Assembly: GCA_030425645.1 (NCBI GenBank)
Contig: JAUHZK010000001.1
Coordinates: forward strand, 124,001 to 188,000
Length of the DNA stretch: 64,000 nucleotides
Direction of reading: 5' to 3'
Source: Gammaproteobacteria bacterium
GTDB taxonomy: Bacteria > Pseudomonadota > Gammaproteobacteria > JAPPPA01
A program made the translations under genes and the position numbers. This document shows positions 13,126 through 31,096 of the stretch, one piece after another; the first letter of the stretch is position 1, and each line of letters starts with the position of its first letter. Under the pieces are notes generated by a model. The model was given only the letters and a program-made list of their open reading frames with translations. It did no database searches and was not told the origin of the DNA.

Positions 13126-14538
13126 ATGTCTTCAACGCACACGCCTGAAAGCCCACAGCAGTCCGCAAACCAACAATGGGGTGGCCGTTTTTCTGAGGGT
13201 GTTGACGCCTTTGTGCAGGCGTTTACCGCATCGGTAGATTTTGACCAAAGGCTATATCGACACGATATAGCTGGCTCGGTTGCGCACGCGACTATGCTAG
13301 CTGAAGTTGGCGTGCTGACTGTTGCAGAGCGTGATCAGATTTTGGACGGCTTGGCACAAGTTAAAGCCGAGATCGAAAGCGGCCAATTTGAGTGGTCGGT
13401 ACCGCTTGAAGACGTGCATATGAATGTCGAGGCACGCTTGACGGCGATTGTTGGTGCGGTTGGCAAAAAGTTGCACACCGGGCGTTCGCGTAACGACCAA
13501 GTGGCGACCGATATTCGCCTCTGGTTACGTGATGAAGTTGATGTCATCGTCTCTGAAATGCGTCGCCTACAACAAGGCTTGTTGGATTTGGCCGAGCGCG
13601 AAGCCAGCAGCATTATGCCGGGCTTTACCCACCTGCAAGTGGCACAACCAGTGACTTTTGGCCACCATATGTTGGCTTGGTTTGAGAACGTTGAACGTGA
13701 TGTGCAGCGTATGCTGGACTTGCGTAAGCGTATTAACGTAATGCCGCTTGGCTCGGCTGCCTTGGCCGGCACTACCTACCCTATTGATCGCACCATTACC
13801 GCTGAACTACTGGGTTTTGATGCCGTGAGTGAAAACTCCTTAGACGGTGTTAGCGATCGTGACTTTGCGATTGAGCTATGTGCGGCCGCTTCAATTTGCA
13901 TGGTGCATTTGTCACGTTTCTCAGAAGAACTAGTGCTATGGACCTCGGCGCAGTTCGACTTTATCGACCTGCCAGACCGCTTCTGCACCGGCAGCTCAAT
14001 TATGCCGCAGAAGAAAAACCCCGACGTACCAGAGCTAGTGCGTGGCAAATCTGGCCGCGTGGTTGGTGCGCTAATGGGCTTGATTACTTTGATGAAAGGC
14101 CAGCCGTTGGCCTACAACAAAGACAATCAAGAAGACAAAGAGCCGCTATTCGATACTGTCGATACGCTACAAGGTAGCTTGCGCGCTTTCGCTGACATGA
14201 TGCCGGCCGTAACCGTTAAGCACGACAACTGCCGCAAGGCTGCGTTGCAAGGTTATTCCACCGCTACTGACTTGGCGGATTATCTAGTGCGCAAAGGTCT
14301 GCCTTTCCGTGACTCGCATGAAGTAGTCGGTAAGTCGGTGGCCTATGGTATTGAGCAAGGTAAAGACCTCTCTGAAATGACCTTGGCAGAGCTGCAACAG
14401 TTTGATGAGCGCATTGAGCAGGACGTGTTTGATGTGCTGACGCTCGAAGGCTCAGTCAGTGCGCGGAATCATTTTGGTGGTACCGCGCCGGCGCAGGTGC
14501 TTGAGGCGGTTAAGCGGGCGCGCGGACGTATCGCTTAA
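13126..14538 (+). CDS. argH: Argininosuccinate lyase
   Basis: 470 aa, usual length. It cleaves argininosuccinate to arginine and fumarate, the last step of arginine synthesis. The superfamily signature [12 protein letters not shown] with the catalytic Ser loop is present (about residues 286-297), as are [12 protein letters not shown] and [13 protein letters not shown]. It is divergent from algZ, as in pseudomonads, and is followed by a non-coding block of about 630 bp holding the inverted repeat pair. Both its start (ATG with AGAGAT upstream) and its end are unambiguous. Confidence 0.97.
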
Positions 14539-14612
14539 TCACTTCGGTGGGAGTCCTGGTGGTTGTTTCGGCCCTAGAAGGTTCTACTCGCTTTCGGTAA
14601 GTGTGTTGGTAA

Positions 14613-14790
14613 GGCCGAGTTACTTTTTTCCTTGGCGAAAAAAGTAACCAAAAAAGCCACCGCCAACTGCGCAGCCGCTACGCGGTTCCTTGCGCTTCTC
14701 GCGGATTTTGGCGGTCGCGGGAACTCGCTTCGCTCAAACAAGCCGCTCCCTCAACCCAAAATCCACTGCGATGCTCAGCTGCGCAAAAGG
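14613..14790 (-). repeat. Structured intergenic repeat, unit A (minus orientation)
   Basis: Read on the minus strand from 14790, this unit has the same architecture as units B and C: an outer stem (GCGCAGC with GCTGCGC), a middle stem (GGATTTTGG with CCAAAATCC), a conserved core containing TGTTTGAGCGAAGCGAGTTC, a GAACC box, then a terminal hairpin (stem arms 14619-14629 and 14638-14648) and the end sequence ACTCGGCC. It is head-to-head with unit B, 53 bp away, so the pair forms a 415-bp block with matching ends GGCCGAGTTACTTTT / GGCCGAGTGACTTTT. It lies between the convergent argH and gltA genes. The open frames through it are not regarded as genes. Confidence 0.8.
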
Positions 14791-14843
14791 GGCCTAGAGG
14801 GAAAGGCTTCACGCTACCAACGCTGCTGGTTAGCAGTACCTTT

Positions 14844-15027
14844 GCCCTTCTATGCGGCCGAGCAACGGAGCTAAATCGAGATAGAGCCTGCGGCCTGTTT
14901 GAGCGAAGCGAGTTCCGCAGGCGCTCGATTTGGCGAGTAGCGCAGGGAACCCCGAAGGGGCCGCATGGTGGGATCGCCTTTCTTTTGGTTACTTTTCTTT
15001 GGCGACGCAAAGAAAAGTCACTCGGCC
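14844..15027 (+). repeat. Structured intergenic repeat, unit B
   Basis: This plus-strand unit is nearly identical to unit C over 129 bp (14844-14972). Visible pairing: outer stem ATGCGGCC (14852-14859) with GGCCGCAT (14959-14966); middle stem AAATCGAG with CTCGATTT; inner stem GCCTGCGG with CCGCAGGC; loop TGTTTGAGCGAAGCGAGTT. It ends with a terminal hairpin (arms 14991-15001 and 15008-15018) and ACTCGGCC at 15020-15027. Together with unit A and the gltA terminator it accounts for most of the 634-bp gap after argH. The rest of the gap (14539-14612 and 15028-15112) shows nothing recognisable. Confidence 0.82.
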
Positions 15028-15112
15028 CGCACTTATAAATCACCCGAAAGCGCACAAAACTTTCTTAAGGCCGAAGCCGACACCTGCAAAGCCTAGCCAC
15101 ACGCCTAAAAAC

Positions 15113-15152
15113 AAAAAAGCCCCGCAACGGCAAAACCATTGCGGGGCTTTTT
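15113..15152. terminator. Bidirectional rho-independent terminator after gltA
   Basis: A perfect 9-bp stem, GCCCCGCAA (15119-15127) with TTGCGGGGC (15139-15147), has an A-run on the left and a T-run on the right, so it can terminate transcription in both directions. It lies 21 bp past the gltA stop (minus strand) and would also stop readthrough from argH. Confidence 0.85.
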
Positions 15153-15172
15153 ATCGCCTAGCGGCGTGGCTT

Positions 15173-16462
15173 CTAACGTTTGTCGATAGAAACGTAATCG
15201 CGCTGAGGAGCACCAGCGTAAATTTGGCGCGGACGGCCAATACGCATTTCTTTGTCGCCCATCATTTCTTGCCAGTGCGCCACCCAGCCTACGGTACGTG
15301 CTACAGCGAACAGTACGGTAAACATGTTGGTAGGAATGCCAAGCGCTTTGTAGATGATGCCTGAGTAGAAATCGACGTTCGGGTACAACTTCTTCTCGGC
15401 GAAGTAGTCGTCGTTCAACGCGGTTTCTTCTAGCTTCATCGCTAGGTCTAGCATTGGGTCGTTAATGCCTAGGTCGTTCAGTACTTCGTGGCAGTAGCTA
15501 CGAATAACCTTAGCGCGTGGATCGAAGTTCTTATAAACACGGTGGCCAAAGCCCATTAGACGGAACGGATCGTTGCGGTCTTTGGCTTTGTTGATATATT
15601 TCTCGGCTTGGCTCATGTCGCCAATCATTTCTAGCTGGTTTAGTACCGCTTCGTTAGCACCACCGTGTGACGGGCCCCAAAGGGTAGCAATACCGGCTGC
15701 GATAGCGGCGTATGGGTTGGTGCCAGCAGAGCCAGCAAGACGCACGGTAGAAGTTGATGCGTTTTGCTCGTGGTCAGCGTGAAGGATGAACAATACGTCC
15801 AAGGCTTTCGCTGCCACTGGGTTTACTTCGTACTCTTCAGCAGGAACGGCAAACAACATGTTTAGGAAGTTGCTGGCGTAATCCAAGTTGTTCTGAGGGT
15901 AGATGAATGGCTGGCCAATGTTGCGCTTAAAGGCAGCGGCAGCAATGGTAGGGATCTTAGCGATCATGCGCGCCGCGAATAGGTTGCGGCTTTCTGGGTC
16001 GCTGATGTCGGTTTCGTCATGGTAGAACGAAGAAAGTGATCCGACTACGCCCAGTAGCATGGCCATTGGGTGTGCGTTGTAACGGAAGCCTTGGAAGAAG
16101 TTCTTCAAGTTCTCGTGGATCATGGTGTGGTTTTGCACACAGGTCTCAAACTTGGTTTTTTCTTCTAAGTTAGGTAGCTCGCCGTTTAGCAACAAGTAGC
16201 ACACTTCTAGGAATGAGCTATTGGCACAAAGGTCTTCGATGGTGTAACCGCGATATAGCAGTTGGCCAGCGGCGCCGTCGATGTAGGTGATCTCAGAGGT
16301 GCAGCTACCAGTAGCGGCGTAGCCAGGGTCGTAAGTAAAGGCGCCAAACTCGCCGGCTACATTTTTAATTTCAATGCAGTCTTGGCCTAGTACGGGGGTG
16401 CGTACTGGTAGTTCAATGCTTTTGCCTTCTGGCGAGGTGAGAGTAAAAGTCTTGTCGCTCAT
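15173..16462 (-). CDS. gltA: Citrate synthase (type II)
   Basis: 429 aa, matching hexameric bacterial citrate synthases. It condenses oxaloacetate and acetyl-CoA at the entry to the TCA cycle. Catalytic parts are visible: [36 protein letters not shown] and the Asp in [15 protein letters not shown]. It lies 44 bp downstream of a malic enzyme gene on the same strand, so the two may be cotranscribed. In pseudomonads gltA is usually next to sdh genes, so this neighbourhood differs. A strong terminator follows. Confidence 0.97.
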
Positions 16463-30920: not shown

Positions 30921-31096
30921 GCCCTTTGTGCGGCTGAGCAACGGAGCAAAATCGAGATTGAGCCTGCGGCCTGTTTGAGCGCAGCGAGTTCCGCAGGCGC
31001 TCGATTTTGTGAGTGGCGCAAGGAACCGCGAAGCGGCCGCACGGTGGGTAAAGCATTTTTTCGTCTATTTTTGATGCCTCAAAAATAGACTCGGCC
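30921..31096 (+). repeat. Structured intergenic repeat, unit C
   Basis: The first 128 bp (30921-31048) match unit B closely. Pairing is kept: outer stem GTGCGGC with GCCGCAC, middle stem CAAAATCGAG with CTCGATTTTG (perfect 10 bp), inner stem GCCTGCGG with CCGCAGGC. The terminal hairpin is a perfect 10-bp stem, GTCTATTTTT (31063-31072) with AAAAATAGAC (31081-31090), of unrelated sequence to those in A and B, then ACTCGGCC. It fills most of the 307-bp gap between the convergent ABC1 kinase and small membrane protein genes. The remainder (31097-31193) shows nothing recognisable. Confidence 0.82.

Follow-up and report, generated by a model that had tools for sequence, protein, structure and literature searches.

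Several families of small repeats resemble parts of the element described here. REP sequences are palindromes of 20–50 nt that carry a GTAG-type tetranucleotide 5′ of the hairpin, and the RAYT/Y1 genes associated with them are often flanked by the repeats (PMC8266576). The R0–R200 repeats, compared here by description and reported from three P. fluorescens strains only, are likewise intergenic inverted-repeat elements between convergent genes, some of them MITE-like, and their Tail-repeat-Tail bias was read as marking the least harmful location (PMC2718517). According to a 2011 report (PMC3110155), BRE is an intergenic repeat of 75–91 bp found in Bordetella, Rhodoferax, Polaromonas, Acidovorax and Delftia, whose copy number varies by locus and which is possibly mobile. 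Integron gene cassettes carry attC sites, which are recognised as folded single-stranded DNA, leave their stem sequence free and serve to mobilise single genes. Finally, d(GCGNAGC) mini-hairpins (Hirao, Yoshizawa) are known from chemistry and as parts of aptamers, as described in PMC4686876.

The locus presented here lies in a window of 64,000 nucleotides (the whole stretch of DNA that was analysed), where a head-to-head repeat pair at ~14556–15085 separates the convergent genes argH and gltA. It is comparable to REP, BIME and REPIN sequences in being an extragenic, intergenic pair of inverted palindromes with species-specific stems and a Tail-repeat-Tail bias, of which one strand is probably recognised as folded single-stranded DNA; two inverted copies, the spreading unit of REPINs and BIMEs, are also what we find here. 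The first-pass annotation's description of the repeat as REP/BIME-like thus holds for its character but not for REP proper, because size, GTAG guide and RAYT linkage all fail: the unit is ~240 nt long with several hairpins, a conserved loop stands in place of the guide, inspection of the aligned units revealed no GTAG at the 5′ side of the long hairpin (H1), and no RAYT was detected in two element-rich genomes. Unlike REP, the element also has a cap that is identical across phyla and cargo between its units. Compared with integrons, there are two inverted units here rather than one attC per cassette, there is no array, no integrase was noticed among the loci read, and visual inspection of the base of H1 revealed no GTTRRRY pair (R′/R″ boxes). 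The H1 of Comamonadaceae copies is similar to BRE in size and taxa, and one genome carries two units in direct tandem, ~106 bp apart (G094 L183:967–1210), that resemble the variable-number BRE arrays of Bordetella. BRE may be the H1 of our paired repeat in a partial earlier description, compared by size and host range alone; the BRE text as read (PMC3110155) is silent on structure, cap, pairing rule, DNA loops and cargo.

On its own strand, each unit runs from H1 through a small hairpin (H2) flanking H1 on the 3′ side and a terminal hairpin (H3, of the GTTACTTTTCTTTG...CAAAGAAAAGTAAC type) to a closing arm, GGCC...GGCCGAAAC. H1 by itself accounts for 125 nt and consists of three stems, two purine-rich internal loops and the cap. 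The whole element (units A and B, 14556–15085) lies between argH (13126–14538, plus strand) and gltA (15173–16462, minus strand). In unit A, on the minus strand, the branched H1 occupies 14663–14788, as delimited by a covariance model and by covariation (139.7 bits, E = 7.6e-35, for a unit that belongs to the training set), and its apical cap TGTTTGAGCGAAGCGAGTT, located by core pattern match at 14722–14740, encloses GCGAAGC with a GNA triloop. Reading the sequence further gives H2 at 14675–14685 (CCGC-GTA-GCGG, a GNA triloop with C-G closure), H3 (GTTACTTTTTT...AAAAAAGTAAC) at 14619–14648, and an outer end of GGCC/GGCC arms followed by GAAAC at 14570–14616. Unit B, on the plus strand, has its H1 at 14848–14972 by the same two approaches (148 bits, E = 4.2e-37, again for a training-set member), with an outer stem at 14852–14858/14960–14966, a middle stem at 14873–14880/14924–14931, an inner stem at 14887–14894/14915–14922 and the cap TGTTTGAGCGAAGCGAGTT at 14896–14914 (core pattern match); H2 (CCCC-GAA-GGGG, 14950–14960), H3 (GTTACTTTTCTTTG...CAAAGAAAAGTCAC, 14988–15021) and the outer end (GGCC...GGCCGAA, then CACCTG, 15024–15085) were again read from the sequence. 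A short spacer at 14789–14847 separates the 5′ ends of the two units at the position occupied by cargo in other genomes, and the two outer ends repeat each other in inverted orientation (GGTNGTTTCGGCC...). Unit C is single, with H1 at ~30924–31048 on the plus strand (148.2 bits), downstream of an ABC1/UbiB-like gene, and its H3 is GTCTATTTTTGATGCCTCAAAAATAGAC.

The positions and strands that the first-pass annotation gave for units A and B were confirmed, as were the shared core (3 occurrences in the window against 0.01 expected), the outer stems (GCGCAGC/GCTGCGC in A, ATGCGGC/GCCGCAT in B and GTGCGGC/GCCGCAC in C) and the middle stems (GGATTTTGG/CCAAAATCC in A, AAATCGAG/CTCGATTT in B). The feature exceeds the extent it had delimited by the terminal hairpin and closing arm of each unit, and the cross-phylum cap, the presence or absence of units at orthologous sites and the gene-enclosing pairs lay beyond its view. 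Its judgement that the pair encodes no protein also stands: the open frames overlapping units A and B, at 14678–15055 (minus, 125 aa) and 14930–15364 (plus, 144 aa), have no Pfam match and are almost certainly spurious, a likely source of false gene calls. Taken with its flanks, the H3 of unit B shares 80–92% identity with sequences on plasmids from Paraburkholderia, Pasteurella and Aeromonas. Separately, H3-like modules occur unannotated at at least 40 places per record in Paraburkholderia megaplasmids (NZ_CP012748.1 and others), with no intact cap upstream in the two copies inspected.

To quantify compensatory change, we used an alignment (A2) of 27 units drawn from this genome and the congener G001, and counted covariation on A2 only because a cross-genus MAFFT alignment puts the stems out of register. 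In A2, 95.2% of cells are paired, compared with 80.4% in shuffles, and pairing falls to 34–43% when partners are slid by 1–3 columns. Two-sided changes affect 123 cells, against 38.8 in shuffles, and occur in 17 of 30 pairs; the covariation score of 0.428 (0.171 in shuffles) was reached by none of 500 shuffles. RNAalifold independently predicted 39 pairs, 21 of them with two-sided changes. The constant parts are the cap and the purine internal loops, while the stems vary freely. The H1 structure is thus under selection, bearing out the earlier reading of the stem differences as compensatory changes that maintain a folded single strand. Rfam covariance models gave no match to the repeat, in keeping with the earlier failure to assign it to a named family, and the betaproteobacterial toxic small RNA of Rfam, considered as a candidate, was rejected because cmscan found no match.

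At least five phyla (Pseudomonadota, Bacillota, Bacteroidota, Nitrospirota and Desulfobacterota) share an identical cap, TGTTTGAGCGNAGCGAGTT, on stems that are unrelated in sequence. A scan with the pattern GC.TGTTTGAGCG.AGCGAGTT, using one genome per species, returned at least 111 matching stretches, compared with a chance expectation, by our own arithmetic, of ~0.5 in 257 Gb. Among the matches listed are Burkholderiales, Pasteurellaceae, Thiotrichales, Desulfobacterales, Nitrospirales, Clostridium, Lachnospiraceae, Negativicutes and several Bacteroidota; in these, the stems have a host-like base composition and no common sequence, and ~35 pairs span the cap in the multi-phylum copies, compared with 9 after shuffling of the 3′ arm. 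A covariance model trained on the window's genus only still detects copies in Clostridium (4e-8), Butyrivibrio (5e-8), Haemophilus (1e-7) and Bacteroidetes (6e-5). Because 17–19 non-coding bases are identical in Clostridium, Bacteroidetes and Proteobacteria on stems without shared sequence, the cap demands a reader. A phage collection contained no match to the repeat, and many of the ~20 structured copies in IMG/VR contigs resemble host DNA of Pasteurellaceae or Bacteroidetes type; a phage origin was rejected on both grounds.

Covariation that preserves pairing does not discriminate RNA from single-stranded DNA, the two options that the first-pass annotation had offered; the selection on folding stands, and the chemistry of the loops narrows the choice by pointing to DNA. 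The cap GAGCGNAGCGAG contains GCGNAGC, a hairpin whose RNA version lacks the stability of its DNA counterpart. In PMC4686876, GNA and GNNA loops carried by two or more G-C pairs are described as extraordinarily stable DNA mini-hairpins, with a Tm of 78 °C for GCGAAGC, and the same motif type is present in the cap and in H2, here as a genomic repeat. GNA triloops in H2 number 16 in this genome against 0.3 expected, and 24 against 1.4 elsewhere, which places them 17- to 50-fold above shuffles, while GNRA is not enriched. C-G closure is found in all 61 GNA loops compared with 8 of 26 other triloops. The four-base cap loops follow a similar rule: GTTA (eight times) and GCTA (once) in this genome and GGTA, GATA, GACA, GTCA and GTTA elsewhere are all GNYA, and GNRA never occurs. 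Furthermore, the flanking GA/GA and GA/GNA internal loops, as deduced from the A2 columns, are consistent with sheared G-A motifs. Based on the GNA/GNYA loops and their C-G closure, we infer that the folded molecule is probably single-stranded DNA. On the cap strand, G-T mismatches outnumber A-C mismatches (48 versus 25, p = 0.0095; p = 0.12, not significant, in distant taxa alone), which argues that one strand is under selection rather than a double-stranded cruciform.

Could the repeat instead be a structured RNA, that is, a transcribed 3′-UTR, terminator or small-RNA element that has multiplied as a repeat under selection on the RNA? The one-strand tolerance of G-T is equally compatible with RNA, the sites lie at 3′ ends of genes (13 of 16 between convergent genes), and according to PMC3110155 a betaproteobacterial repeat of similar size overlaps small RNAs of Bordetella. 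The RNA fold has a z of −2.4, although energy folding (z of −1.9 and −2.4) did not separate DNA from RNA and was discarded as an uninformative discriminator. Against these points, the loops are GNA/GNYA with C-G closure and not GNRA or UNCG, Rfam holds no counterpart, and each paired unit is read antisense from the neighbouring gene. Moreover, gltA has its own strong terminator at 15114–15152, directly beyond the edge of the element, and the pair itself contains just a single, weak terminator-like site. We consider the structured-RNA explanation unlikely.

The exact core, with a loop of one or two bases allowed, matches 28 times genome-wide, compared with no matches to a reversed control pattern. 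A covariance model of the kind proposed in the first-pass annotation, built here from the 27 units of this genome and G001, detects 37 units in this genome and 13 in the congener; copies within one genome are related, so these counts represent non-independent events. All 13 pairs in this genome are head-to-head (−,+) and none is tail-to-tail, and in named genomes elsewhere, taking the nearest inverted cap within 6 kb, 19 pairs are head-to-head and 2 tail-to-tail, with head-to-head spacing mostly of 207–306 bp, Lachnospiraceae included. Single units exist beside the pairs. Directly upstream of several single C-type units, on their left side (L156, L157, L160 and L152), lies a CCCTTCGACAAGCTCAGGGCGAGCGG hairpin, possibly a short partner end or else an independent repeat. 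In L162, the left partner of the unit at 1539–1663 is an A-type unit broken inside its cap by a nested hairpin (CAAAACGGCAGGACTGCCGTTTTG) and further sequence, which is a different repeat inserted into it.

The flanks of 15 sites were sought in G001. Four orthologous sites could be aligned there without a unit, and three further orthologous regions lack the core, giving seven sites in all. In the congener, the entire argH-gltA pair is inverted as one block (81% identity over 486 bp, window positions 14541–15016). Empty sites in the sister species and the inverted pair at argH-gltA together indicate that the element moves, and the pair is likely the unit that does so. Inspection by eye revealed no clean target-site duplication, the empty-site alignments being too diverged to show one.

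Thirteen of the 16 sites (one uncertain) lie between convergent genes. This strong bias would also suit a host-domesticated bidirectional structure at convergent gene ends, acting in termination, in topology or as a barrier to converging transcription, rather than an active mobile element; the same bias in P. fluorescens was interpreted as one of least-bad location (PMC2718517). Such a role is difficult to reconcile with the high turnover between two congeneric species, with cargo-bearing pairs and with the presence of covariance-model matches in only 64 of 377 sampled genomes of the class, and we regard it as distinctly improbable. A MITE whose outer inverted ends are used by a DDE transposase to move it in double-stranded form, with the inner hairpins secondary, would account for those ends, for the whole-pair inversion and presence/absence, and for cargo flanked by inverted units, but is very improbable given that the internal cap and not the element tips is the most conserved sequence, that compensatory changes run all along H1, that no target duplication was recognised and that single units exist.

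In several genomes, inverted units enclose genes. Pairs that surround 1.1–3.8 kb of DNA with a gene inside were found in G035 (three), G074 and G337, and in nine genomes with mapped units, wide pairs (0.4–4 kb) have the (−,+) arrangement in 5 of 6. Three wide pairs analysed in detail have flanking units that are 80–86% identical over 162–264 nt around a unique interior of ~1–2 kb, and the likeness between units ends 3–17 nt upstream of H1, which identifies them as true inverted repeats around unique DNA. The cargo of G337 is an FRG-domain protein (Pfam E = 1.2e-18) that matches the PADLOC phage-defence candidate PDC-S15 (8e-41); this gene lies between two 80% identical inverted units (G337:C63 L226:953–2566), and the locus is possibly a mobile defence cassette. 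G074 carries a 470-aa protein of no known family, and G035 carries proteins of 315, 96 and 143 aa, also of no known family, together with a pentapeptide-repeat protein and a 200-aa unknown. In this genome, the 0.36-kb interior of pair C10 contains a 53-aa frame only. The cargo cases are few.

Because REPINs are moved by single-copy RAYTs, a Y1 transposase is the obvious candidate for the mobilising enzyme. This genome has a single-copy Y1 gene of the IS200-like/RAYT type (201 aa; L136:1261–1866; G000:C2 near 414125) adjoining glmU. Its 3.3-kb locus contains no core and is not flanked by the element, so the link to a REP-associated transposase raised by the first-pass annotation was not borne out. 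In the 377-genome class sample, Y1 genes are present in 53 of 64 genomes with the element and 207 of 313 without, a weak enrichment (p = 0.008). Neither G074 (11 units on one closed contig) nor G067 (25 exact caps) yielded a Y1 gene, and on present evidence a RAYT/Y1 enzyme is thereby rejected as an obligatory partner. The sole adjacency seen is in G058 (C11 L245:4633–5812), where a Y1_Tnp (RAYT-like) gene starts ~280 bp past a unit in the same orientation; at this locus, the Y1-adjacent unit and the next inverted unit enclose a gene for a trypsin-like peptidase that matches LmuA in PADLOC. A search for proteins recurring near the element (80 loci) yielded only widely shared families or apparent spurious frames of the repeat. 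The mobilising enzyme could belong to a different class or be provided from outside, and by analogy an HUH-type nuclease is a tentative candidate for the protein that recognises the cap.

We favour, with about an even chance of being right, a REPIN-like giant paired element of single-stranded DNA hairpins that is mobile and able to carry genes. In such an element, the two head-to-head units would form the ends of a mobile, mostly non-coding sequence. On the cap strand, each unit would adopt a single-stranded DNA fold: a long three-stem hairpin topped by the fixed cap (d(GCGNAGC) inside TTT-GA...GA-GTT), then on its 3′ side a small hairpin with a GNA loop, and behind this the terminal hairpin. 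The interior would usually be a short spacer and could hold a gene, while a protein, by analogy an HUH-type single-strand nuclease acting in trans, would recognise the cap. The element would spread at low frequency, with insertions surviving best between convergent genes. A bolder version, which we put forward as doubtful, is that these repeats represent a previously unrecognised multi-phylum class of gene-carrying elements, with large single-stranded DNA folds as ends and an invariant GNA-hairpin cap, in which a cap-reading nuclease would act in trans to place accessory genes one at a time, phage-defence candidates among them, at intergenic sites of convergent type, and the A/B pair would be an empty pair left behind. 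The cap and H3 sequences had no relevant match in the open-access literature, and the claim to novelty is limited by the possible identity with BRE and by subscription journals, which lie outside that scope.

The paired repeat may explain spurious small ORFs called on such repeats. It offers a natural example of the laboratory d(GCGNAGC) mini-hairpin serving as a biological mark, and its distribution, cargo and enzyme are directly testable with the covariance model and the exact-cap pattern. The element also points the way to a mobile-element system with a possible part in moving defence genes.
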